NCBI RefSeq assembly: GCF_014205335.1
Contig: NZ_JACHNH010000001.1
Coordinates: forward strand, 1,426,001-1,490,000
DNA length: 64,000 nucleotides
Direction: 5' to 3'
From: Amorphoplanes digitatis
Lineage (GTDB): Bacteria > Actinomycetota > Actinomycetes > Mycobacteriales > Micromonosporaceae
The position numbers and the translations under genes were made by a program. Below the pieces are notes generated by a model. The model saw only the letters and a list, made by a program, of their open reading frames with translations. It was not told the origin of the DNA and did no database searches. This document shows positions 33,343-64,000 of this stretch, one piece after another. The first letter of the stretch is position 1. Each line of letters opens with the position of its first letter.

Positions 33343-36300
33343 ATGAGTCGTACACGTAGACGATCCATGCCATCGTGGTTCAGGGTCAGAGTCATGGGGT
33401 CCAGGCGACGGCGGACCCTGGCCGTAGGTTTGATCACCGCATTGCTGACCGGGACGTTCGCTGCGGTCGCCCGGCCGGCCGCAGGAGCCCTGCCGCAGCG
33501 GGCCAAGGCCCAGACATCCCAGGCGCAGGTGGTGGAGCGAGCTGACGAGGCCGCGGCGCTGATCACCGCGCGGATGACTGGGCAGAAGGTTCGGATCGCC
33601 GGGTTGACGACGGAGACCTCGGAGTTCTTTGCCCAGCCCGACGGGCAGATCACGGTCAACGTTGCCGCCGGTCCGGTCCGCACGAAGCGGGACGGTCGGT
33701 GGGTGCCGATCGACCTGACCCTGCGGCTCGCTGGGGACGGTTCAGTTCAGTCGGTCGCCGATTCGCTGAACCTGCGGATCTCCGGTGCCCGTGCCGCCGG
33801 CGGCGAACTCGCTTCGACCGGCAAGGCTGGCCGGCGCCTCGCGCTCGGCTGGCAGGGAAAGCTGCCGGCGCCTACGCTCGCCGGCACCCGGGCGACGTAC
33901 CCGGATGTCGTGCCCGGGGTCGACCTCGTCGTGCAGGCGACCCGCGCCGGTTTCGAGCAGTTCTTCATCGTGAAGAGCCGGGACGCGGTGGACCGCCTGC
34001 CCGACCTCTCCCTGCCTTTGACAGGCGACAAGGTCGCCTCGTTCGTGCCCGACTCCTCCGGTGGTCTGAGCCTGCGGGACAGCAAGGGTCACACCGTCGC
34101 GGCGGTTCCCGCGCCGGAGATGTGGGACGCCCGGCGGGTCCCCGGCACGGAAGCGCCGGTGCGCCGCACGATTGTCCCCGTCAAGCGGAAGCAGGGTACG
34201 AAGTCCGCCGCACGGGCAGCCACCGGGCAGGACAAGGGCATCACCCTTACGCTCAAGCCCGACGTCACGTGGTTGAAGGACCCGGCGACGCAGTTCCCGG
34301 TCACCATCGACCCGCAGCTCAACGCGCTGTCGACGTCGTTCGACACCTACGTCCGGCAGGATGTCACCGCCGATCGCAGTGGTGCCGCCGACCTGCAGCT
34401 CGGCCTGTTCACCGGCACGCCGAACGCCAATGCGCACGCCTTCGTGCACTGGCCGGTCGCCGCTCTGGCGGGCAAGCAGATCACTGCGGCCACGGCCAAC
34501 TTCTGGAGCTGGTGGTCGAACACCTGCACCCCGAGCTCGTGGGAGATTTGGACCACCGGTGCCGCGTCGTCGGCCACGCGGTGGGACAGCCAGCCGGAGT
34601 GGCTGAACTTCGAAGCGGCCTCCACCCAGTCCAAGGGCTACTCCACGGCATGCGATGACGGCTGGGTCTCCGTCGACGGTACGAGCTTCTTCCAGCGTGC
34701 CGCCACCGCCGGTCAGTCGACGGCCTACATGGGTCTGCGTGCGACGAACGAGACCACGACGGCCGGATCCAAGCTGTTCCGGTCCCGCAACGCCGATGAC
34801 ACCGCTCAGGTGCCGTTCGCCTCGGTCACCTACAACTCGTACCCGACGGTCGGCACCCGGTCCACGACACCGGCCACCGCCTGTGTGACCGGCGAGAACC
34901 GGCCGAAGATCAACAAGCTGACGCCGCAACTCGCCGCCGGCATCACCGACGCCGAGGGCTCAGCGGTCAAGGCCGAGTTCGAGTGGTGGGCGGTGACCGG
35001 CACCAGCAAGCTGGGCAGCACGGTGACCGGCCTGGACGCCTCCGGCACCACCTTCACCGCGGCGCCGCCCGCCGGTGCGCTGGTCAACAACAGCAGCTAC
35101 AAGTGGCGGGTACGGGGCAACGACGGCATCGTCAACGGTGTGTGGTCGACGTTCTGCGAGTTCACCGTCGACACCACGGCCGTCACCACGCCGAGCGTCT
35201 CCTCGCCGCAATACGCCCAGGACGCCTGGAGCGGCGACGCCAACGTGCCGGGTCAGTTCACCTTCGACCCGAACGGCGAAGTCGACGCGGTAGCGTACGA
35301 GTACAGCCTTGACGTGCCGATCAACAAGACGATCAACGCCCCGAGCCCCGGTGCGCCGGTGACGGTCACGTTGACGCCGTTGACGCCGGGCTGGCACAAC
35401 GTGCAGGTCCGCACCCGTGACGCGGCGGGCAAGGTCTCCGATATCAAGGCCTACCCGTTCAAGGTCGGATCCGCGGCCATCACGTCGCCGGAGACCGGCG
35501 ACATGAGCGGCGCCAAGACGTCGATCACCGCGATTACGGCGGCCTCCATCACCAAGGCGAACTACCAGTGGCGGCGGGCCGGTTCGGATCTGTGGGTGGA
35601 CATCCCCACCTCGCACGTGACCTATGCGGACGGCTCGGCGGTGGCGGCCTGGCCGATCACCGTGACGAACGGCGTCGTACCTAAGATCAACTGGGACATC
35701 GCCGCCACGCTCGCCTCGGTGGACGCCGAGTCGATCCCGCGTGACGGACCGGTGCAGCTCCGCGGAATGTTCGACGGCGGCAACGTCGACCCGATCAAGC
35801 TGAGGTTCGACCGCAACCGGGCCAGCGCGGCCACCGACGAGGTGGGCCCAGGTTCGGTGAACCTCGTCACGGGCAACTACCAGACTGGTCAGAGCGACGT
35901 CTCGATCGCCGGGCTGTCGGTGCCCCGTGTCTTCAACAGCCGCCAGACCGGTGGCGTGGACCCCCTCTTCGGTCCGGGCTGGGTGTCGAGCACGAGCGTG
36001 TCGCCGGTCGACCCGGGTTACACGAAACTGACCGTGTTCGGCAGCCTTGTTCAGGTCGGCCTGCCGGACGCCACGTCACTCGGCTTCACGAAGAAGGGTA
36101 CGGCAGGCACCGACTTCGAGCCTCCGCTCGGCGCGGAGAACTACACGCTGAAGTACAGCTCCGGGACGAACGCCTACACCTTGAGCAGCGTCAGCGGTGA
36201 CCGGGTGATCTTTACCCGCACCACCAACGACCCGGCCGGCGTCTATGTGCCGACGGCGTACACCCCGCCCGGCTCCGGCTCCACCACCTCGGTCGCGTGG

Positions 36301-39300
36301 GAGAAGGTGACGGTCAACGGGCAGACGATCATGCGGCCCACTAGGGTGCTCGCCTCGATTGCTGACGGCGTCACCTGCACCACGCTGGTCCGGGGCTGCA
36401 AGGCGCTGGAGTTCCGCTACTCCACCACCACGACCGCCACGGGAACGGCGGACGGCACCTGGGGTGCGTACGCCGGCCGGATCGCGGAGATCGCCTACAC
36501 CGCGTGGGATCCCGACCTGTCCACCCCGGCGATGCGCACCATCGTGGTGTCGCGGTACGCCTTCGACAACACCGGATGGCTGCGCGCCGCCTGGGACCCG
36601 CGTCTGGACTATACGCAGAACAGCGTCGTCCGGTCCTTGCGCAGCATCTACACCTACGGCGCCAACGGGGTGCTGACCGCCATCGCACCGCCGGCCCAGG
36701 AACCGTGGCAGTTCAGCTACACGACCGTGCCGAACGACCCGGGTTCGGGCCGGCTGTCGAAGGTGACCCGATCGGCGCTGTCGGCCGGCACCTCCGTCGA
36801 GACCGTGGTTTATCAGGTACCCGTGTCCGGTGCGGGCGCGCCGTACGACCTGTCCGCGGCCCAGACCAGCCGGTGGGGTCAAACCGAGCCGCCGACCGAT
36901 GCGACGGCCGTGTTCCCGCCCACCCAGGTGCCGACCGGTGATCCGGTCACCGGCACCCTGCCCAGCTCCTACGAGCGGGCAACCGTCACCTACCTGGACG
37001 CCAACGCCCGTACGGTCAACGGTGTCCAGCCCGGCGGTTACCTGAGCACCACCTGGTACGACGGTTTCGGCAACATCGTGCAGGAACTCGGTGCCGGAAA
37101 CCGCCAGGCGGCCCTCAACGCCTCGACCTCGGACACCCCCGCGGTGGAGGCAGAACTGGCCCGTGCGCTGTCGGAGGCCGTCGTCTACTCGGCTGACGGA
37201 CAGCGGCAGCTGGAACGGTTCGGACCGGAGCACGATGTCGTGCTGCCGAACTCCGGCACCACGGTCAAGGGAAGGGCGCACATCCGCCTGACCTACGACG
37301 AGGGCGCCCCGGAAACGGGTGGACCCTTCGACCTGGTCACCACCGAACGCACCTCGGTGAGCTACGTCAACGCCGGTCAGACCGTCGACGATGACGTGCG
37401 CACCACCACCAAGAAGTACGACTGGACGTTGCGAGCGCCGACCGTCTCGACGGTCGACCCGGGTGGCATGGAAATGATCAGCCGGACCGCATACGACACG
37501 GTCGGACGGGTGACAGCCACCACGGCGCCCGCCGGCGGAAGCGTTGACACAACGCCGTCGACCCGGCGCATCGTCTACTACACCGACGCCGCGAACACCA
37601 CCCATCCCGAGTGTGGTGGCCGTCTGGAGTGGGCAGGGCTGGTCTGCCTGACCCGATCCGGCGGCGCCGCGGACACCGGTCCGGAACTGCTCACCAAGGT
37701 CGTTACGTATGACGTATACGGCCAGCTCCGGACGACCGTCGAGAAGAACAGCGGCGGCACCCGGCGCACGTCCACCGTGACGTACGACGCGGCGGGACGA
37801 CCCGTGGAGCAGAGCATCTCCGCCCCCGGTCTGGGCAAGGCGCTGGAAAAGACCCGCACGGTTTACGACGCGGCCAGCGGTCAGAGCGTGCGCACCCAAA
37901 CGGTCAACGCGTCCAACGTGGTGACGGCAGAGGTGATCCGGGGTTACGACACGCTGGGCCGGCCGACGTCCTACACCGACGCCGACAACAACACGTCGAC
38001 GACCACCTACACCCTGCTCGGACAGCAGGCGACGAGCAACGACGGCAAGGCGACCCGTACCTACACCTACGACGGAGGTACCGAGCGGCGAGGCCTGGTG
38101 ACGTCGGTGAACGACAGTCAGGCCGGCGTCTTCACCACCACGTACGACGCCAATGGTGCCTCGGTGGCCGAGGCGTGGCCCAACGGGCTCGCGATCACGC
38201 GCACCTACGACCCGGCCGGCACGCCGACCAAGGTGGCGTACGGCCGGCCCGGCTGTGGCCAGCCCACCTGTGGTCTCTACTTCGACGCGGCCGGCTACGG
38301 CATCCACGGCCAGAAGCGGTGGTCCAGCAACACCTTCGCCTACCAGGTCCTCGACTACGACCGCTCCGGCCGGCTGGAGATGGTCAAGGAGACCAAGGGC
38401 GGCAGCTGCGCCGTCCGCAAGTACGGTTTCGACGAGGCCACCAACCGCACCTCGCTGACGAGCTATGCGCCAGCGGCCAACGGCACGTGCCAGACGACGA
38501 CCGTGGCGGCGACGAGGACATCGACCTACGACAACGCCGACCGGGCCACCACCGCCGGTTACAGCTACGACGCACTGGGCCGGACCACCACGACACCGGC
38601 CGCGGAGACCGCCAACCCCACCGGCGGGAATGTGACCGTTGCTTACCACGCCAACGACATGGTGAGCACGATCACTCAGAGTGGTCGTACCACCGACTAC
38701 ACGTTGGACGTCACAGGCTCGCGGGTGCGGTCCTGGACGGACAACATCACGGGCACCGCCGTACGGGCCACCCATCACTACACCGACGACGGTGACAACC
38801 CGGCGTGGACGCAGGAAACGGCTACCCGCTTCAGCCGGGTGGTGGCGGGACTGGGCGGCATGGCGGCCCTGTTCAACAGCACCGGTTCGGTGCTGGACTG
38901 GCAGCTCAGCAACCTCAACGGCGACATCGTGGCGGGCATCAACGGCAGCAGTGCCGGCCTCACCACCACCCGCGATTTCGACGAGTACGGGACCCCGCGC
39001 AACACCGCCGAGACCGGGAAGCTGCGCTACGGCTGGCTCGGCCAGGCTCAACGGGCATCCGATGCGCCGGCCGGCATGACGCTGATGGGCGCCCGGGTGT
39101 ACAACCCGTCCAGCGGTCGGTTCCTGTCGACCGATTCCGTGCACGGCGGTAACGCGAACGCCTACGACTACGCCAGCGGTGACCCGATCAACAAGCACGA
39201 CGTCTCGGGTCAGATGGGTTGCTGGCGCACGACCGGTTGGTCCACCAGAAAGTGGAACTACTGGTGGGGCGGTTGGGGCGGCTATCGCGCCAGCACGAAC

Positions 39301-39576
39301 TACCGCTGCTCGTTCTCGAACAGCGACATGAAGTGGATCGCCAGATTCGGCTTCATCTGGGCGATTGTCGGCATCGTCGTCGGTCTCTTCTTCATACCCG
39401 CAGGCGCGGCCTTCGAGGTCGCGGCCATAGCGCTGGCCTGGGCGTGGTGGGAGTACGAGCAAGCGTGCCCCCGCAAGCGCGGCGGATACTACGGCGGCCA
39501 AGTCCGTATCTACTACAACAAGAATTGGCGCTTCCAGTGGGCGGCCAACAAAAACAGATACCTCACGTGTAAGTGA
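33343..39576 (+). CDS. Secreted YD-repeat (Rhs) polymorphic toxin with a membrane-type C-terminal tip
   Basis: The product has 2077 residues. An N-terminal export signal (basic start, [20 protein letters not shown], to about residue 50) is followed by the actinobacterial Rhs N-region, a DNRLRE-like beta domain (about 330-500), fibronectin-like segments, then RHS/YD repeats from about 1000 to 1880 (for example [16 protein letters not shown]). The core ends with [18 protein letters not shown] near 1920 and [12 protein letters not shown] near 1950. The last ~125 residues are a different kind of sequence: Trp/Tyr/Gly-rich, one or two hydrophobic segments ([20 protein letters not shown]), and a basic aromatic tail. 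In such proteins the tip is the toxin; here it suggests a membrane-acting one. Its stop overlaps the next gene. Confidence 0.93.
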
Positions 39577-40091
39577 CGGGACGTAGACAGATGGGCTCTA
39601 AGGTGGATGTGTGGTTGGCTGGCTCAACGGTGGCGCAACTGACGCCGCCGCCCGAATCAATCATCGACGGTGACCCGGCAGCGACCGTGGTGCGCATCTG
39701 CTGCCTGCGTCGAGAGGGAATGAGCGGGTTGGAGGTGAGCGTCGCGGTCGACGAGGCCACCGCCGGCCGGTTCACCCGGGCATGTCTACTCGAAACCATC
39801 TGGAAGCAGAGGGTGCTGCCGGCGATCCTGCTGGTATTGGCATTGACCGTCGTAGGATTCGTTATCGACGCGGTAATAAACGACTCGGAGTTGCTGGGGG
39901 TGTTTCTCCTGCTGGCATTCGTCCTGGCAGGCGTCACCTTCGGCGGCAGGTTCGCGCTGATCCTGCTGCGCTCACGGCACCATCCGAAATTGCTGAACAA
40001 CAGCGATGTTCTCATTCGCGACGTCGACCCGAGCACCGCCCGAAGGTGGGCGGATCTCAATCCAGCGGGCGCCATCACGATAAGGAACTAG
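39573..40091 (+). CDS. Candidate membrane immunity protein for the Rhs1 toxin
   Basis: The 172-residue protein begins at a GTG that overlaps the Rhs1 stop (GTGA); an ATG at 39591 is an alternative start. After a soluble part of about 85 residues it has two hydrophobic segments ([18 protein letters not shown] and [17 protein letters not shown]) and a basic C-terminal region. The GC content is visibly lower than in neighbouring genes. Position right after the toxin tip and coupled translation fit an immunity protein, and its membrane location fits the membrane-type tip. No family is recognised. Confidence 0.7.
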
Positions 40092-54780: not shown

Positions 54781-56406
54781 ATGGATGTGACTGATTCCGT
54801 CGCCGCGAGCCGGCAGCGGGTCATCGGCTTCGCGGATGTCATCCGGATTCCGCTGCGCCGCTGGCGGATCGTGCTGGCCGTCGTGGGCACTGTCACGCTC
54901 GTCGTGCTCGGATATCTCCTCTTCTTCCCGGCGACCTACCGGGCGACGACGGTCGTCGTTCTGCGCCCCGTGGTCACCGACCCGTTCACCCTGCCGTCCA
55001 GCGGCGCCGACCGGGCCATCAACATGACCGCCGAGAACGGCATCGCGCTCAGTAACGGCGTCATCGACACGACCGCCCAGATCCTTCAGCAGGACTCGGA
55101 GGAGATCCGCAAGGCGCTCTCCATCGAGGTGCCCACCGGCGGCCAGGTGCTCCGCTTCCAGTTCGCGAGCGACACCGAAAACAGCGCGATCACCGGCGCG
55201 AACACCGCGGCGGAGACCTACCTGCGCGTCCGCGAGGACATCTACAAGCAGCAGCGGGCCGCGCTGATCCTGTCGTACGACAACACGATCAAGTCGGTGA
55301 CCGCGCAGCGGCTCTCCGCGCAGAAGGACCTGCCCACGCAGCACAACAGCACGGATACCGCGTCTCCGCGTACGCAGGCGACGCTGGACCAGGTCAGCGC
55401 GCTCAACGACCAGATCGCCCAGCTCGCGAACGCGCGTGCCAAGGTGGCCTCGGCCGACCTGAGCCCCGGCTCGATCACCGCCGCGGCCCGCTCGCCGATC
55501 CCGTCAAGCCACGACGCCGCCGCGGTCTACCTGCTCGGCGCGGTGCTGGGCGGCCTGGTGCTCGGCGTGGTCGCCGCGCACGCCCGCGAGGCGCTGGACC
55601 GCCGGGTCCGCTCCATCGAGCAGGCCGCCGAAATGGTAGGCATGCCCGCGCTCGGCCTGGTCCGGGCCGGGCGGCACCACGAAGACGCGGCGGCCGCCGA
55701 CGCCCGCTATGTGTCGCTCGCGCTGCTCAAGTGGATCGACCCCCACTCGGAACGGCCGCTGGTCGTGCTCTCCAGTCGCAACGACGAAGGCCGTACGGTC
55801 GTGACCGGGAATCTTGCGGTCGCGCTCGCCGAGGCCGGCCAGGACGTCATGCTGGCCGGCCCGCCGGAGAGCCAGGAGGAGCTCAAGCGGGTGCTGTTCG
55901 CGGCGCAGAAGCGCACCCCGCCGCGGCCCCGCACTTCGCCGAAGGGCGGTTCCGCAGGGTTGAATGGCTCGCCTTCGGCGGACCGGCTCGGCCGGAGCCC
56001 CGGCGGGGCCCGGCAATCGGGGCTGTCGGCGCGCGTGGCGCCTGCGCAGGTGCGGATGCCGTCCAACGATCCCGAGGCCACGCTGGTCATGCAGGCGCCG
56101 GTGCCGGCCCCGGCGGCCCTGGGGAAAGCCGCGGCCGACCGCGACAGCCGCCAGATTGTTGTGCTGATCGGTGGCGGCGTGGTGCGGCTACGCACGCTCG
56201 GCGAGGAGCTCGAAGGTGGTGTGGTCGTGATCGACGCCCCACCATCTGACAGCGATGAGCGAGGCGTCCGCGCTGCGCAGTCCGGTGTCGCGGTGCTGGT
56301 AGTCGCCCAAGATCGGACACGCAACGCTGAACTGACCCGTCTCGTCGATCGCGTGCGCTCGGCCGGTGCGCAGACCGTCGGCTTCGTTCTCACCGGGGGA
56401 CGCTAG
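54781..56406 (+). CDS. Wzz-like polysaccharide co-polymerase with degenerate BY-kinase-like domain
   Basis: The 541-residue protein has a Wzz-type N-terminus (cytoplasmic start, membrane segment at about 36-56), a periplasmic coiled-coil part to about 240, and a second membrane segment near 255. The C-terminal cytoplasmic part resembles BY-kinases, but the Walker A region reads SSRNDEGRTVVTGNLA instead of a GxxxxGK[ST] P-loop; the Walker-B-like VVVIDAPPSD remains. It may therefore lack kinase activity and act as a scaffold. A Pro/Ser/Arg-rich insert (about 380-460) lies in this domain and its DNA holds a short inverted repeat. It likely controls chain length. Confidence 0.85.
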   Translation: MDVTDSVAASRQRVIGFADVIRIPLRRWRIVLAVVGTVTLVVLGYLLFFPATYRATTVVVLRPVVTDPFTLPSSGADRAINMTAENGIALSNGVIDTTAQILQQDSEEIRKALSIEVPTGGQVLRFQFASDTENSAITGANTAAETYLRVREDIYKQQRAALILSYDNTIKSVTAQRLSAQKDLPTQHNSTDTASPRTQATLDQVSALNDQIAQLANARAKVASADLSPGSITAAARSPIPSSHDAAAVYLLGAVLGGLVLGVVAAHAREALDRRVRSIEQAAEMVGMPALGLVRAGRHHEDAAAADARYVSLALLKWIDPHSERPLVVLSSRNDEGRTVVTGNLAVALAEAGQDVMLAGPPESQEELKRVLFAAQKRTPPRPRTSPKGGSAGLNGSPSADRLGRSPGGARQSGLSARVAPAQVRMPSNDPEATLVMQAPVPAPAALGKAAADRDSRQIVVLIGGGVVRLRTLGEELEGGVVVIDAPPSDSDERGVRAAQSGVAVLVVAQDRTRNAELTRLVDRVRSAGAQTVGFVLTGGR

Positions 56407-57320
56407 TGCCAGAGGCCTATCCCGACGTCAGTGTCATCGTCGCCACCTGTGACCGCCCCGGTCTGCTTGAGCGGGCCGTGGCCAGCATCCTCAGCCAGGA
56501 CTATCCCGGTCGCGTCGAGTGCATCGTGGTCTACGACCACGTCGACGTGCGCGACCTGAATTTGTCGGTCGGACCGGACCGGGCTCTAAAGCTGATCAAC
56601 AACGGCCGCTGGCAGGGCCTGCCCGGCGGCCGCAACAGCGGCGTCGACGCGGCGACCGGCGAGCTGCTGGCGTTCTGCGACGACGACGACATCTGGCTGC
56701 CCGCCAAGCTCAGCCGGCAGGTGGAGCTGCTCGCCGACCCGGCGATCGGCGCGGTGAGCTGCGGGCTGCGGCTGCGCGGCCCCGGCATCGACAAGGAGCG
56801 CGTGCTCGACCGCGACCGCGTCGTCCTCGACGAGTTGCTTGCCGACCGGGTCATGGAGGTGCACTCCAGCACCATGCTGGTGCGGCGCTCGACCTGGGCC
56901 GCCGCCGGCGACGTCGACGAGGGCATCCCGGGCGGCTACAGCGAGGACTACGAGTGGCTGCTGCGGGTCACCGCGCACACGCCGATCGCGGTGGTCCGGC
57001 AGGCGCTGGTCATCGTCGACTGGCACGGCGGCTCGTTCTACTTCGGCCGCTGGGCGACGATCGTGCAGGCGCAGCGCTACCTCATCGACAAGCATCCGGA
57101 ACTGGCTGGCAGCCGCCGCGGCATGGCCCGGCTGCGCGGGCAGATCGCGTTCGCACTCGCCTCGGGCAACCGGCGGATGGAGGCGCTGCGCGAGCTCGCC
57201 GCCGTCGTGCGGCTCAACCCCACCGAGAAGCGGGTGCTGGTCATCGTTCCGGTGATCCTGGGCCTGGCGACCGGCGAGCGGTTGCTGCGGATGGCGCAGA
57301 AGCGCGGCAAGGGGATCTGA
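56406..57320 (+). CDS. Family 2 glycosyltransferase
   Basis: The 304-residue enzyme has a GT-A fold: PDVSVIVATCDRPGLLERAV, LPGGRNSGVDAATGELLAFC, the DXD-type motif CDDDDIWLPAK (near residue 93), and GGYSEDYEWLLRV. It transfers a sugar from a nucleotide donor during repeat-unit assembly. GTG start overlaps the stop of the Wzz-like gene (TAGTG). A 99-bp piece of a close relative of this gene lies at 59943-60041. Confidence 0.93.
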   Translation: MPEAYPDVSVIVATCDRPGLLERAVASILSQDYPGRVECIVVYDHVDVRDLNLSVGPDRALKLINNGRWQGLPGGRNSGVDAATGELLAFCDDDDIWLPAKLSRQVELLADPAIGAVSCGLRLRGPGIDKERVLDRDRVVLDELLADRVMEVHSSTMLVRRSTWAAAGDVDEGIPGGYSEDYEWLLRVTAHTPIAVVRQALVIVDWHGGSFYFGRWATIVQAQRYLIDKHPELAGSRRGMARLRGQIAFALASGNRRMEALRELAAVVRLNPTEKRVLVIVPVILGLATGERLLRMAQKRGKGI

Positions 57321-57322
57321 GG

Positions 57323-57529
57323 TTGGCCCGGCCTGGACTGCGCCTCCGGCGGGTGCGGGCGACCGCGCCCGCCCAGGCCCGCGCGGTCGCGCCGGTCGCG
57401 CCCGGGGTTCTCGAGCCCGGCGCCTGGCCGATCCGTACGCCGAAGCTGCCGGCCGTCAGCCCCACCGGCCTCTGGCCCAGCGCGCTGGACGGACCGGTCA
57501 ACCGGCAGGTCACGGAGCCGATCACATGA
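57323..57529 (+). CDS. Small hypothetical protein in the polysaccharide operon
   Basis: This 68-residue frame starts at TTG (AAGGGG eight bases upstream), right after the glycosyltransferase, and its TGA overlaps the ATG of the flippase gene (ATGA). Codons are almost all G/C-ending, as in real genes here. The product is Pro/Ala/Arg-rich, with TPKLPAVSPTGLWPSALDGP near the C-terminus, and has no membrane segment. No family is recognised. The tight coupling on both sides is the main reason to accept it. Confidence 0.55.
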   Translation: MARPGLRLRRVRATAPAQARAVAPVAPGVLEPGAWPIRTPKLPAVSPTGLWPSALDGPVNRQVTEPIT

Positions 57530-59043
57530 GCACCATCGCGAGGCCCGCGGACACCGAGTCGCGGCGCAGCGCGCGCAGCGGCGCGATCGGCCTGCTCGGC
57601 GCCGCGGTGAACGGGGCCTGCGGATTCGTGCTCACCGCCGTGATCGTGCGCGTCTTCGGCCCGGCCGAGTCGGGCGCGTTCTTCACCGCCGTCGGAATCG
57701 TCAGCATCGTCGGCCCGCTGTGCTGCCTCGGCGCCGACACCGGCCTCGTGTGGGCGCTGCCCCGGCGCACCCTGGGCCCGGCCGGTGACGCGGCCCGGCT
57801 GCTGCCCCTCGCGCTGGTCCCGACGGCCGTCGTGGCCGTCGCCGTCGCGGTGGCCGGCTGGATCGGTGCTCCGGCGCTCGCCGCGGCACTGCTCGACGGC
57901 GGACGGGACGGCACGACCCTGGTCCGGCTCGCCTGCGTGGGCATACCGGTGTTCGTCATCGCCACCGTGCTGATCAGCGGGGTCCGCGCGACCCGCGCGG
58001 TCGGTGCCTACGTCGGTCTGCAACTGGTCGCCGTGCCGATCTCCCGGCCGCTGCTCATCGGCGCGGTCGCCGCCGGCGCCGGGTCCGCCGTCCTGGGCTT
58101 CGCGGGCTGGCTGCTGCCCCTCGCGGTCGCGGCCGTGGCGGCCGCCCTGCTCCTGGTCGGCCCGCTCGGCCTGCGCCGGGGTGCCGGCCTGCGGCCGTCC
58201 GCCGCGGACCGCCGCCTGTTCTGGTCGTTCGCCCTGCCGCGCGCCCTGTCGACGGCGATCGACGCAAGCAGCATGTGGGTCGGCGTTCTGCTCACCTCCG
58301 CGCTGGCCGGTCAGGCGGAGGCGGGGGTCTTCGGTGCCGTGGGCCGCTACGCGCTCGCCGGACTGCTGATCATGCAGGGCCTGCGGGTCGCCGTCGCACC
58401 GCAGCTGTCGCGGCTGCTCGGCACGCAACGACGGCGGGAGGCGGCGCAGATCTACCGGCGGACGACGTTGTGGATCGTGCTGCTGTCCTGGCCCGCCTAT
58501 CTGCTGCTGGCGGCCTTCGCCCCCGCCTTCCTCACCCTGTTCGGCGCCGGGTTCGCCGGTGGATCCGCGCCGATGGTGGTACTGGCCGCCGCGATGCTCG
58601 TCAACGTCGGTGTCGGACTCGTGCAGACCGTGCTGCTGATGAGCGGCAACAGCCGGGGTCACCTGCTCGCCACGATGTCCGGCCTCGCGTTGAACGTGGT
58701 CCTCTGCTTCGTGCTCATCCCGGGTCACGGCGCGCTGGGTGCGGCGATCGCCTGGTCCCTCGGGATCGTCTGCGAGAACGTGATCGCCGCCAGCCTCGCC
58801 CGGAGCGCGCTCGGCGAGCCGCTCTTCGGCCGCGCCCTGATGGGCACCGCGCTCGCCGTGGCGGCCGTGACCTGCCTTGCTGTCGGCGCCGGCGTTCTCG
58901 CGGGCGGACGCGGGCTGGCCGGCCTGGGTGTCGCGCTCGCGGTCCTCGCGCTCGGCGCGATCGCCTCGCTCGGCAGCGGACGGGTCCGCCTCGCGCTCAA
59001 GAACATCCGGGCCCAGCTCGGGCCCGGCCCGGAGCGCCGCTAG
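57526..59043 (+). CDS. Wzx/MATE-like polysaccharide flippase
   Basis: The 505-residue protein has about 12-14 hydrophobic segments and the Wzx/MurJ layout: GAIGLLGAAVNGACGFVLTA at the start, VFGPAESGAFFTAVGIV, LALPRALSTAI-like middle and GHGALGAAIAWSLGIVCENV toward the end. It translocates lipid-linked repeat units across the membrane. No Wzy polymerase is seen in the window, so it must be encoded elsewhere or lost with the operon's end. Confidence 0.9.
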   Translation: MSTIARPADTESRRSARSGAIGLLGAAVNGACGFVLTAVIVRVFGPAESGAFFTAVGIVSIVGPLCCLGADTGLVWALPRRTLGPAGDAARLLPLALVPTAVVAVAVAVAGWIGAPALAAALLDGGRDGTTLVRLACVGIPVFVIATVLISGVRATRAVGAYVGLQLVAVPISRPLLIGAVAAGAGSAVLGFAGWLLPLAVAAVAAALLLVGPLGLRRGAGLRPSAADRRLFWSFALPRALSTAIDASSMWVGVLLTSALAGQAEAGVFGAVGRYALAGLLIMQGLRVAVAPQLSRLLGTQRRREAAQIYRRTTLWIVLLSWPAYLLLAAFAPAFLTLFGAGFAGGSAPMVVLAAAMLVNVGVGLVQTVLLMSGNSRGHLLATMSGLALNVVLCFVLIPGHGALGAAIAWSLGIVCENVIAASLARSALGEPLFGRALMGTALAVAAVTCLAVGAGVLAGGRGLAGLGVALAVLALGAIASLGSGRVRLALKNIRAQLGPGPERR

Positions 59044-59058
59044 TAGTACCCTGCCGCG

Positions 59059-59715
59059 ATGGACCTTCATTCCCTGCGTTGGCGCTTGGTCGATCGGCCC
59101 GATTCCTGGGGCGCGAAACGCCGGGAAGCGCGGTCGCGGTGGCTGGCGGAGACCTTTCCAAATCTGTCCGACATGTCCGTTGTGGATCTGGGCGGCCGGG
59201 TCGGCTTCTGGCGCCGGCTTCCGGTGCGGCCCAAGCACGTGCACGTCGTGAACCTCGAACCGGCCCCGGCGGACCTGCCGGAGTGGGTCGAGGTGGACCA
59301 CGGCGACGCCTGCGCCCTGCCGGCCGAGATCGCCGACCGGCGCTACGATCTGGTCTTCAGCAACTCGGTCATCGAGCACGTCGGCGGTCACGAGCGCCGG
59401 CTGCGCTTCGCCGAGGCGGTGCACGCGCTGGCGCCGGCGTACTGGGTGCAGACGCCGTACCGCTACTTCCCGATCGAGCCGCACTGGATAGCGCCCGGAA
59501 TGCAGTTCCTGCCGGTGGTCGTGCGCCGAGAGGTGGCCCGCAAATGGCCACTGGCCTACACCCCCGGCCGCACCCGCGAGGAGGCGCTGTCCCGCGTGCT
59601 GTGGACGGAACTGGTGGACAAGACACAGATGCGCGCCTACTTCCCGGACGCCACTCTGCGCTCGGAGAAGGTCATGGGGCTCACGAAGTCCCTCATCGCC
59701 TACAAGACGGCTTGA
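59059..59715 (+). CDS. SAM-dependent methyltransferase of the polysaccharide operon
   Basis: The 218-residue class I methyltransferase has SAM-binding motif I as VVDLGGRVGFWRRL, an acidic loop (NLEPAPADLPEWVEVDHGDA), and FSNSVIEHVGGHERRLRFAE as the catalytic-side motif. It may methylate a sugar or lipid carrier in polysaccharide synthesis. TACCCT six bases before ATG suggests a leaderless transcript independent of the upstream genes. Confidence 0.9.
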   Translation: MDLHSLRWRLVDRPDSWGAKRREARSRWLAETFPNLSDMSVVDLGGRVGFWRRLPVRPKHVHVVNLEPAPADLPEWVEVDHGDACALPAEIADRRYDLVFSNSVIEHVGGHERRLRFAEAVHALAPAYWVQTPYRYFPIEPHWIAPGMQFLPVVVRREVARKWPLAYTPGRTREEALSRVLWTELVDKTQMRAYFPDATLRSEKVMGLTKSLIAYKTA

Positions 59716-59722
59716 GGCCGTC

Positions 59723-59947
59723 GTGACCGTGAAGGACCGGGTCAAGAGCGTCGCACCGCGGGCCGCCACGGAACAGGTCCGGGAGCTGATGGTCCGCTAC
59801 GGCGAGCGGACCAGCGACCGGCGGCCGCTGCCCGACTTCCTGGTGATCGGCACGAAGCGCGGCGGCACGACCTCGCTGTGGCGCTACCTGATCCAGCACC
59901 CGCTGGTGCCGCGGCTCTTCCCCGTGTGGAACACGAAGACCTCTTGA
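59723..59947 (+). pseudogene. Truncated sulfotransferase (first ~74 codons)
   Basis: The 74 codons encode the start of a PAPS-dependent sulfotransferase: PLPDFLVIGTKRGGTTSLWR with the 5'-phosphosulfate-binding P-loop-like KRGGTTSL, then YLIQHPLVPRLFPVWNTKT. The frame then meets a stop at a sharp junction (about 59940) with a glycosyltransferase fragment. The rest, including the 3'-phosphate-binding and catalytic regions, is missing. Complete relatives have around 280-300 residues, so this is not functional. It would have sulfated the polysaccharide. Confidence 0.8.
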
Positions 59948-60041
59948 GCGGGCCGTGGCCGGCATCCTCAGCCAGGAATATCCCGGTCGCGTCGAGTGCA
60001 TTGTGGTCTACGAACACGTCGACGTGCGCGACCTGAACTTG
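59943..60041 (+). pseudogene. Fragment of a second GT2 glycosyltransferase gene
   Basis: The 99 bp match 56466-56564 of the GT2 gene at 94 of 99 positions. The encoded peptide LERAVAGILSQEYPGRVECI then VVYEHVDVRDLNL differs from the intact gene by conservative changes (S to G, D to E twice), so it seems to be from a diverged homologue rather than a recent copy. It lacks a start and an end. It directly follows the cut sulfotransferase. Confidence 0.85.
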
Positions 60042-60124
60042 GGCCTGACTTGCCTGACGCATCGACACCGTGCCTCGGTCCAACGCCCTCACCTGGCGTG
60101 TATGGATTCCCTCCGTTAAGAAAA

Positions 60125-60153
60125 TTGACATGCTTCTTTCGAATCCTTAGGGT
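60125..60153 (+). promoter_or_regulatory. Promoter of the Rhs2 gene
   Basis: TTGACA (60125-60130) and TAGGGT (60148-60153) are separated by 17 bp, near the housekeeping sigma consensus. Transcription would start near 60160 and give a 30-base leader before GTG at 60190. The region 60042-60189 is AT-rich and has no gene. Confidence 0.75.
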
Positions 60154-60189
60154 CTTACGAAAGTTGATCATGGACACGGGGATACGCGA

Positions 60190-63100: not shown

Positions 63101-64000
63101 CGACCAATGTGGTCACCCCTGGCTCGGGGACGGCCATGACCTACTCATGGCAGAAGGTCACGGTCGACGGGCAGGACATCATGCGCCCCACCCGTCTGCT
63201 TGCGCCGGTGGCCGACGGCGTCACCTGTACCACCCTGGTACGCGGCTGCAAGGCGCTTGAGTTCCGATACTCCACCACCACGAGCGCCACTGGGACGGCC
63301 GACGGCACGTGGGGTGCGTATGCCGGCCGGATCGCGGAGGTTGCCTACACTGCGTGGGATCCGGATCTCAGCACGCCCGCGATGCGCTCCGTAGTGATGG
63401 CCCGCTACGCGTTCGACAGCACTGGGCGGTTGCGCGCGTTCTGGGACCCACGCCTCGACTACACCCAGGATGGCGCTGCCAAGTCGATGCGCCTGACGTT
63501 CGAGTACGACGGCAATGGGGTGCTGACCTCCGCTACCCCGGCGGGGCAGCCGCCGTGGCTGTTCACCTACACCACCTTGTCAGACGACCCGGCCATCGGC
63601 CGCTTGTACAAGGTGACCCGGTCGGCGCTGAGCGCCGGCACGTCGGTGCAGACCGTCGTGTACCGCGTTCCCGTGTCCGGGACCGGCGCACCGTATGACC
63701 AATCCGCCGCCCAGACCAGCAGATGGAGTCAGACCGAGCCGCCGGTCGATGCTACCGCCGTCTTCCCAGCGACCCAGGTCCCGACCGGCAACCCCTCAGC
63801 GGGCACGCTGCCGAGTAACTATGACCGGGCAACGGTGACCTACCTGGACGCCAACGCCAGGATGGTCAACGAGGCTGAGCCTGGCGGTTACCTGTCCACG
63901 ACCTGGTACGACGGCAATGGCAACATCGTGCAGGAGTTGTCCGGAGGTAACCGACAGAGGGCTCTTGGCGCCTCCGCCACAGATACACCCTCCGCGGAGG
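60190..64000 (+). CDS. Second YD-repeat (Rhs) protein, truncated by the window end
   Basis: From GTG 60190 one frame runs open to position 64000 (1270 codons) without a stop. It begins MKRSHGGTFVRIGRQIRTKQ, with a signal-like LLTLVVAAGSATVVMPSLAS. The following AALVTARSTGLDVRITGRTT and TETSEFIAHPDGRITAKVSA are clearly homologous to the N-terminal region of the Rhs1 protein, and so are the DNRLRE-like part, SPQYPQDAWGGDANTAGDFT and the VEPGSVNLITGN block. YD repeats begin near 63250. The toxin tip and immunity gene lie beyond the window. The tract after the signal, KPPSPSPSPS, is specific to this copy. Confidence 0.92.
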   Translation, partial: MKRSHGGTFVRIGRQIRTKQGRGLTGLLTLVVAAGSATVVMPSLASAKPPSPSPSTLPKIVERPDDAAALVTARSTGLDVRITGRTTETSEFIAHPDGRITAKVSAAAVRTKRDGKWTPIDLNLRLAADGSVQPVADSLHLRISGARANSGELASIGSGDQRLALGWPGRLPTPVLAGNRATYPDVVAGIDLVVTATRSGFEQFVVVKSRDAVDRLPKLDLPLTGAGLASSTADRSGGLVLHDTKGRRLGTMPVAEMWDAQRAPGTGEPTRRSIIATERASGSKSVGRRIKSDTPGRITLQVRPNAAWLKNPATRFPVTIDPQINALTTSFDTYVRQDVTADRSGAADLQLGLFAGSPAANAHAFVNWPVAQLAGKQITAASVYFWSWWSNTCTPSSWEIWTTGAASSATRWDSQPTWLNYEASSTQTKGYSAACDDGWVSIDGTSFFQRAATAGQSTAYMGLRATEETTTLGSKLFRSRNADDTDQVPYADITYNSYPTVGVRSTTPSSACVTGTDRPKINKTTPQLAAAVTDPEGSPVKAEFEWWAVTGTNKLGSAMSDAAASGSTLGVTVAAGALTDGGNFKWRVRGDDGLTRGSWSSFCEFTVDTSIVNAPTISSPQYPQDAWGGDANTAGDFTFSPNGSSDVTAYDYSLDVQTLGKVVNLTTAGEPATVKITPMTAGWHALYARSRNAAGTVSTTRVYPFRVGNGAVTSPRPGDVSGAKVVLGSAATPSFADVTYQWRRASSDTWTTIPAAHVTHATGGTAVTWPVALSAGAAPKLNWDVAATLASVDAAGIPRDGPLQVRAFFNLDNYGANAEHVKFLFDRNLASAETADVEPGSVNLITGNLQLAQTDVSVADLTLSRTLNTRQPGGLDPLFGPGWVSGVLPGAEAPYTRLTVYGSLVQIGLPDQSSVGFTRTGSGTTFEPQVGAESYRLAFSSTSNTYTLTDESGNVVTFGRSSTDPAGVYVPTNVVTPGSGTAMTYSWQKVTVDGQDIMRPTRLLAPVADGVTCTTLVRGCKALEFRYSTTTSATGTADGTWGAYAGRIAEVAYTAWDPDLSTPAMRSVVMARYAFDSTGRLRAFWDPRLDYTQDGAAKSMRLTFEYDGNGVLTSATPAGQPPWLFTYTTLSDDPAIGRLYKVTRSALSAGTSVQTVVYRVPVSGTGAPYDQSAAQTSRWSQTEPPVDATAVFPATQVPTGNPSAGTLPSNYDRATVTYLDANARMVNEAEPGGYLSTTWYDGNGNIVQELSGGNRQRALGASATDTPSAE

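Follow-up and report, generated by a model that had tools for sequence, protein, structure and literature searches.

What became of an exopolysaccharide operon in Amorphoplanes digitatis in which a sulfotransferase (ST) frame stops early, runs into a piece of a glycosyltransferase gene and is followed by an Rhs gene? We analyzed a window of 64,000 nucleotides (G000:C1:1426001-1490000; the genome is a single contig of 9,128,557 bases). The window ends at 64000, inside the locus, and the remainder lies at window-equivalent 64001-69540, where a window-equivalent position is the C1 position minus 1426000.

The end of a sulfotransferase fragment is joined to a glycosyltransferase fragment

The open reading frame at 59723-59947 (+ strand) codes for 74 aa, which correspond to the start of an ST, cut short. 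The ST fragment itself covers 59723-59943 (+; codons 1 to 73 plus two bases) and is identical at 217 of 221 bases to window-equivalent 68653-68873, the start of an intact ST gene. At 59943, a novel joint leads into a GT2 fragment (59943-60041, +; codons 21 to 53), 94 of whose 99 bases are identical to 56466-56564 in the upstream GT2 gene, on the same strand and with a spacing of 3477. The initial annotation, which placed an abrupt transition to a 99-bp GT2 piece at the end of a 74-codon ST frame, is thereby confirmed. The stop of the 74-codon frame, at 59947, consists of GT2 bases read in another frame directly past the joint. When the 40 kb surrounding the locus were compared with themselves by blastn, two repeats were found at E ≤ 1e-8: the GT2 repeat (E = 1.5e-38), which is thus far beyond chance, and the ST-start repeat of 232 bases (E = 1.3e-108).

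The joint passes from ST codon 73 to GT2 codon 21, both on the + strand, and fuses the 3' part of a block to its 5' part. The intact GT2 gene is unbroken at 56466 and the intact ST gene is unbroken at window-equivalent 68873, that is, at both break points. An ST fragment followed by a GT2 fragment, together with intact genes that run through both break points, is what would be expected of a tandem duplication. Only one base is common to both sides of the joint, which therefore resembles end joining rather than recombination between repeats. Among 67 genus genomes (10 candidates scored per genome), the joint was present in one, that of A. digitatis itself; in the 17 other genus genomes with matches, the ST and GT2 parts matched apart or only one part matched.

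We then compared the two copies of each gene. They differ at nine sites (2.8% divergence), five in the 99 GT2 bases and four in the ST part. Judged against 18 GT2 relatives and 20 ST relatives, the minority base is in the fragment at seven of the nine sites and in the intact gene at two; one of these seven is ST codon 67, where the fragment's base is also that of the near relatives G025, G030, and G031. The GT2 fragment carries the minority base at 4/5 differences and alters, at codon 44, an Asp that is invariant in 18/18 relatives, and a change in ST hits Ala68, invariant in 20/20 relatives. Both fragments, one per copy, look like decaying sequence. Third codon positions account for six of the nine differences (and for 4/5 of the GT2-fragment changes), a pattern which may mean that some of the divergence predates the loss of coding and which would fit a donor allele; nine sites are too few to make either reading firm. 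The proposal that the GT2 piece came from a related functional cluster, made initially because its amino acid changes looked conservative, is weakened by the minority bases and the altered Asp44; given the third-position changes, the piece may still be a diverged donor allele.

The locus continues beyond the window with intact polymerase and sulfotransferase genes

The order of the locus is GT2, a gutted native wzy, flippase, methyltransferase, and ST fragment, followed after the joint by the GT2 fragment, Rhs, a small gene, a second wzy (wzy2), a methyltransferase scrap, and an intact ST gene. The upstream part (copy A) contains an intact GT2 glycosyltransferase gene (56406-57320, +; 304 aa; PF00535, E = 5.5e-18) and an intact Wzx-type flippase gene (57526-59043, +; 505 aa), the product of which matched MatE (PF01554) with an E value of 7e-5 and 22.9 bits, below the cut-off of 24.9, and has homologs at the same place in relatives. 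The methyltransferase gene lies between the flippase and ST (59059-59715, +; 218 aa; Methyltransf_23, E = 1.3e-6). Past the GT2 fragment comes a spacer 5' of Rhs (60042-60189, +), for which no match was found in the other 66 genus genomes (10 candidates scored per genome) or in the loci of 10 relatives (E ≤ 0.1). The Rhs gene (60190-66450, +, in the window to 64000; 2086 aa; TIGR03696 Rhs core, E = 8.3e-12) is followed by the small gene (window-equivalent 66484-66975, +; 163 aa), for which Pfam and NCBIfam gave no hit, and by a second spacer (66976-67229), likewise unmatched in the loci of 10 relatives. As neither spacer has a match, we assign no exact ends to the new segment.

The last part of the locus comprises wzy2, an intact second-type polymerase gene (window-equivalent 67230-68525, +; 431 aa; Wzy_C, PF04932, O-antigen ligase/polymerase, E = 3.5e-11), the methyltransferase scrap (68554-68580, +), and the intact ST gene (68653-69540, +; 295 aa; Sulfotransfer_1, PF00685, E = 9.5e-15). 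The scrap aligns with the methyltransferase gene at 26/27 bases, with a score of 49 versus a maximum of 31 in 300 mononucleotide shuffles. The second ST start lies 8.9 kb downstream of the first and opens the intact gene, which is 92% identical to its G025 ortholog. Against G025, pairwise dN/dS came to 0.14 (ST), 0.18 (GT2), and 0.38 (flippase), and wzy2 gave 0.20 when paired with the second-type copy of G025; across ST, GT2, and wzy2, values ranged from 0.13 to 0.24. Such low ratios suit working genes, although they span both lineages of each pair and not the A. digitatis branch by itself. GC3 is 0.79 in Rhs and wzy2 and 0.83 in the small gene, compared with 0.88 to 0.95 in GT2, the flippase, the methyltransferase, and ST.

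Judging from gene content, the locus has kept a Wzx/Wzy pathway that includes a sulfotransferase, its predicted products being a Wzc-like protein, GT2, flippase, methyltransferase, polymerase, and ST. The loss of sulfation suggested by the initial annotation is thus contradicted by a predicted intact ST gene that lies past the window end; a gene truncated near the edge of a window may be intact a few kilobases on.

We also scanned for transcription signals. A promoter-like match was found just before wzy2 (window-equivalent 67203-67231; 0.2 expected in the scan around wzy2), together with four terminator-like matches around wzy2 (1.2 expected), one of them a stem at 66954-66969, at the end of the small gene. 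The promoter-like match and the stem in the small gene argue against a need of wzy2 for transcription from Rhs. Before Rhs, the scanning rule returned no promoter; a TTGACA-17-TAGGGT pattern was seen there by eye and was left out of the promoter count.

Relatives share a canonical gene order

Among 35 other genus genomes, 10 contained a close GT2 (75 to 89% identity). Their loci include, in this order, a beta-propeller gene, Wzc, GT2, wzy (in 7/10), flippase, and ST. The order GT2-wzy-flippase-ST was found in 10/17 genus loci, namely, in the seven just mentioned and in three of seven others (G063, G069, and G076), and also in three Micromonospora genomes. Five genus loci (G006, G008, G017, G064, and G071) had no wzy match between GT2 and the flippase, and in two genomes (G001 and G073) the locus is more distant and its polymerase shares about 49 to 50% identity with both types. 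The second GT2 gene that had been expected after ST was not there: none of 15 close genus loci had a separate one.

None of the 17 genus loci had a methyltransferase match between the flippase and ST. The methyltransferase has one match in the A. digitatis genome, and matches at E ≤ 1e-40 (54 to 92% identity) occur in 15 of the 66 other genus genomes. The place of this gene varies among G012, G063, G008, G017, G024, and G031: it lies near the locus end in some and megabases off in G024 and G031, and in G012 and G063 it is downstream of a GH16 gene.

The native polymerase gene is a remnant and a polymerase of a second type is present

The 205 bases from GT2 to the flippase correspond to both ends of the wzy gene of relatives; the left end was matched by blastn at 78 to 83% over about 155 bp in G030, G025, and G031, and the right end more weakly. 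This remnant, wzy1 (57323-57529, +), consists of 68 codons in frame, with a stop that overlaps the flippase start (ATGA), and a protein alignment to G025 and G030 assigned it to residues 1 to 44, 398 to 409, and 442 to 454 of a 454-aa Wzy. Two internal deletions thus eliminated the native gene. The loss of Wzy that had been suspected thus holds for the native gene, destroyed down to these 68 codons, and does not hold for the polymerase as such, given the intact wzy2.

Wzy2 is 54 to 57% identical to the Wzy1 of 10 genus loci and 66 to 75% identical to a second set of polymerases found in seven genus genomes. In a FastTree phylogeny of 26 sequences, it grouped with the second set (clade support, 0.997), and the copies of A. 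digitatis, G018, and G025 formed a group with a support of 0.957. In 7/7 other genus genomes that have a second-type polymerase, it sits outside this locus, and no other gene of the locus was found in the 13 to 20 kb read around each. The neighborhoods of the second-type polymerases in G025, G018, G006, G017, G008, G064, and G071 are of several different kinds.

We then looked into the distribution of the two polymerase types. DNA matching ST or GT2 was present in 18/67 genus genomes (A. digitatis included); two of these, G001 and G073, in which the locus is arranged differently and the polymerase is of a third type, were set apart and counted with the genomes lacking the locus, which left 16 genomes with it and 51 others. 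A second-type polymerase (≥60% identity) was present in 8/16 genomes with the locus versus 0/51 others (Fisher P = 2e-6, uncorrected for relatedness). It was present in 6/6 genomes without an intact wzy1 versus 2/10 with wzy1 (P = 0.007; a post hoc comparison that includes A. digitatis and is uncorrected for relatedness), and no genome among the 16 with the locus lacked both types. In the simplest interpretation, either polymerase can do the work of the other. A polymerase that is usually unlinked, and seen in these 67 genomes only where the locus is present, would be missed if such clusters are annotated alone.

The Rhs gene lies beside the rearrangement

The Rhs gene announced after the joint by the initial annotation is indeed there. 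Its product has the Rhs core at residues 1879 to 1955 of 2086, a YD repeat (TIGR01643) at residues 1535 to 1574, and a tip of about 130 aa past the core. The closest Rhs genes found were a second copy in the A. digitatis genome (window 33406-39588), 65% identical to the first, and a copy in G017, 59% identical across the portion of its last 849 residues that matched. DNA 3' of the copy at 33406-39588 matches the start of the small gene (66484) at 65.6%; in the genome search, the match to this copy contained one TGA. The G017 copy is in the same polysaccharide locus, directly after ST and before a conserved 417-aa gene, on the other strand. It adjoins a small gene that by eye seems unrelated to that of A. 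digitatis (L041, 9419-15634 of the reverse complement).

Rhs matches at E ≤ 1e-100 occur in 18 genomes, and they were seen inside this locus in two, A. digitatis and G017. We considered whether Rhs carries wzy2 elsewhere and rejected this: neither Rhs nor the small gene had a match at E ≤ 1e-6 in 37 polymerase-bearing loci (5 of the second type) or in the seven second-type loci. There is likewise no evidence for Rhs as the cause of the rearrangement.

A proposed tandem duplication with complementary loss would account for the gene order

We propose that the locus is a segment of an exopolysaccharide operon that was duplicated in tandem, pruned in a complementary manner, and given another polymerase, a reading to which we assign a probability of about 0.72. 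A block that begins at GT2 codon 21 and ends at ST codon 73 would have been copied in tandem by illegitimate recombination, which would have created one novel joint. In copy two, the stretch from GT2 codon 53 to the end of the methyltransferase gene would then have been swapped for Rhs, the small gene, and wzy2. The gutting of wzy1 in the upstream copy by in-frame deletions is evident from its remnant. The final genes would thereby have come to stand behind Rhs and no longer behind the flippase. We infer the order of these steps, since no predating or intermediate strain was found.

The distribution of intact genes is complementary: GT2, flippase, and methyltransferase are intact only upstream, and wzy and ST are intact only downstream. 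The parts present in copy two stand in the canonical order of GT2 piece, wzy (of the other type), methyltransferase scrap, and ST. Apart from ST, all that is left there of the old block is 99 bases of GT2 and about 27 of the methyltransferase. No convincing trace of the flippase or wzy1 was found in copy two; the flippase matched 33 bases in Rhs (82%, E = 0.002) and 79 residues in the small-gene region (33%, E = 0.036), and both matches were taken as chance. A sulfated polymer is probably still produced, with a different polymerase doing the joining. The readable joint, fragments, and remnant would thus record an operon reordering and a polymerase exchange, apparently without net loss of gene function.

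The third-position changes (6/9) count against a duplication in place and hint that both copies were still coding while some of the divergence arose, as they would have been had copy two come from a donor strain. The segment from the GT2 piece to ST, with Rhs, the small gene, wzy2, and the methyltransferase scrap, could have arrived from a sister strain and been connected to the resident cluster by one illegitimate crossover, the copies then being alleles. We hold this to be unlikely, though it is the strongest of the alternatives: it would bring in the new wzy and all else in one step, and both the 2.8% divergence between the copies and the lower GC3 of Rhs and wzy2 would suit it, but the incoming segment has no intact GT2 and no flippase, so its donor would already have carried a broken or duplicated cluster. 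Minority bases, moreover, lie mainly in the fragments of both copies and not throughout one copy, and no such donor was found among the 67 genus genomes. We are doubtful, to a somewhat greater degree, of a view centered on the polymerase, according to which this locus can draw, throughout the genus, on wzy2 as an exchangeable polymerase that is mostly unlinked to it, and Rhs, the small gene, and wzy2 form a linked cassette that fixes the polymerase swap. Lying inside a duplicated operon, with the GT2 piece on one side and the new wzy on the other, a self-protecting Rhs pair would put a cost on losing the segment and would thereby keep the new polymerase and the only intact ST of the locus where they are.

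An insertion of Rhs, the small gene, and wzy2 as an island between the methyltransferase and ST genes by end joining, with the first 221 bp of ST repeated and the GT2 piece as filler, seems improbable to us. G017 also has an Rhs gene in this locus, directly after ST and on the other strand, and copy two keeps very little of the old block, both of which would agree with an island; yet three separate coincidences would be needed (the ST repeat, a GT2 filler in the right order and strand, and a methyltransferase scrap before the second ST), all of which one tandem duplication explains. The view put forward initially, that the operon end was lost upon acquisition of Rhs and that sulfation and Wzy went with it, draws on the gutted wzy1 and the truncated first ST copy. 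It was right in placing a rearranged cluster beside Rhs; as to gene content, it is refuted by the intact wzy2 and ST genes 7 to 9 kb downstream on the same strand, with their low pairwise dN/dS, and a second, diverged cluster with ST, Wzy, and flippase homologs at C1:7.90 Mb also speaks against it, so that we give it very little credence. Hardly any weight falls, either, on an assembly error at 59943: the genome is one 9.13-Mb contig, and the repeats are short (99 and 221 bp) and nonidentical (95% and 98%), unlike a single sequence that the assembler has entered twice.

Comparison with known systems

Under the SNAP hypothesis, a new gene order reportedly arises when a segment is duplicated and each copy then loses different genes, as we propose here. 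That hypothesis, in the excerpted text of its source, ascribes changes of gene order to selection during niche adaptation (PMC7055797). The present case differs in being operon sized (about 3.5 kb now and about 4.6 kb with a whole wzy1) and in the gain of foreign-looking genes. Tandem-duplication merodiploids of about 100 to 900 kb form via repeats during transformation of Streptococcus pneumoniae, according to extracts of the report (PMC3784515); as proposed here, a tandem duplication is tied to DNA exchange, but the joint of A. digitatis has one common base in place of repeats.

In Salmonella groups B1 and D1, as outlined in parts of a report on their O antigens, a functional wzy lies elsewhere and a wzy remnant is left in the O-antigen cluster (PMC3715488). 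The likeness to B1 lies in the gain of a new polymerase and the reduction of the original one, by deletions, to a remnant at its old place, and the B1 form of LT2 and the A. digitatis locus each have one large and one small wzy deletion, as far as those parts describe (PMC3715488). The new wzy here differs in lying inside the rearranged cluster, downstream of Rhs and before the duplicated ST, in an actinomycete exopolysaccharide locus that is not an O-antigen cluster. The same parts describe the D2 cluster as a recombinant of D1 and E, with an H-repeat remnant at the junction and a new wzy (PMC3715488), and so as another mosaic polysaccharide cluster with a new wzy and a marker element at a junction. 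There, transposition of the H-repeat was proposed to drive the event; we make no such claim for Rhs. As far as these sources go, polymerase replacement is thus of a known kind (Salmonella B1), and a general proposal ascribes changes of gene order to selection (PMC7055797). In the open-licence full-text literature, no account of this locus, or of Rhs with a duplication in such clusters, was among the matches listed.

We also compared the proteins of the locus with 20 kb of a further genus genome, G075, and found 27 to 42% identity. We take this genome to be Actinoplanes missouriensis and the matched stretch to be its wps-1 cluster. An identification of our locus with wps-1 was rejected, as such identities indicate a diverged relative. 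The second A. digitatis cluster, at C1:7.90 Mb, contains the polymerase, ST, and flippase homologs at 30 to 39% identity, and wps-1 looks like a cluster of that kind. Normal sporangia of A. missouriensis require the wps-1 exopolysaccharide cluster, and among its genes wpsJ (Wzy) and wpsH (sulfotransferase), according to the available portion of its description (PMC13390465), and the same kinds of genes (GT2, Wzx, Wzy, Wzz, sulfotransferase, and methyltransferase) appear there. By analogy, the A. digitatis locus may help build a sporangium or cell coat.

The DNA 3' of the intact sulfotransferase gene

A kinase-like label for the conserved 417-aa gene that follows ST was dropped after Pfam gave no hit. 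This gene lies within about 0.75 kb of ST in 8/10 relatives. In A. digitatis, five genes stand between the two (window-equivalent 69738-73937): a PPDK_N/PEP-utiliser gene, a 212-aa gene without a hit, a histidine phosphatase gene, a sigma factor gene, and a 430-aa gene without a hit. Directly 3' of the stop of the intact ST, at window-equivalent 69542-69730, 63 codons resemble the last part of a ricin-type lectin domain (PF00652; E = 3.7e-6; 27.6 bits, slightly below the cut-off of 29) and represent a further truncated gene.
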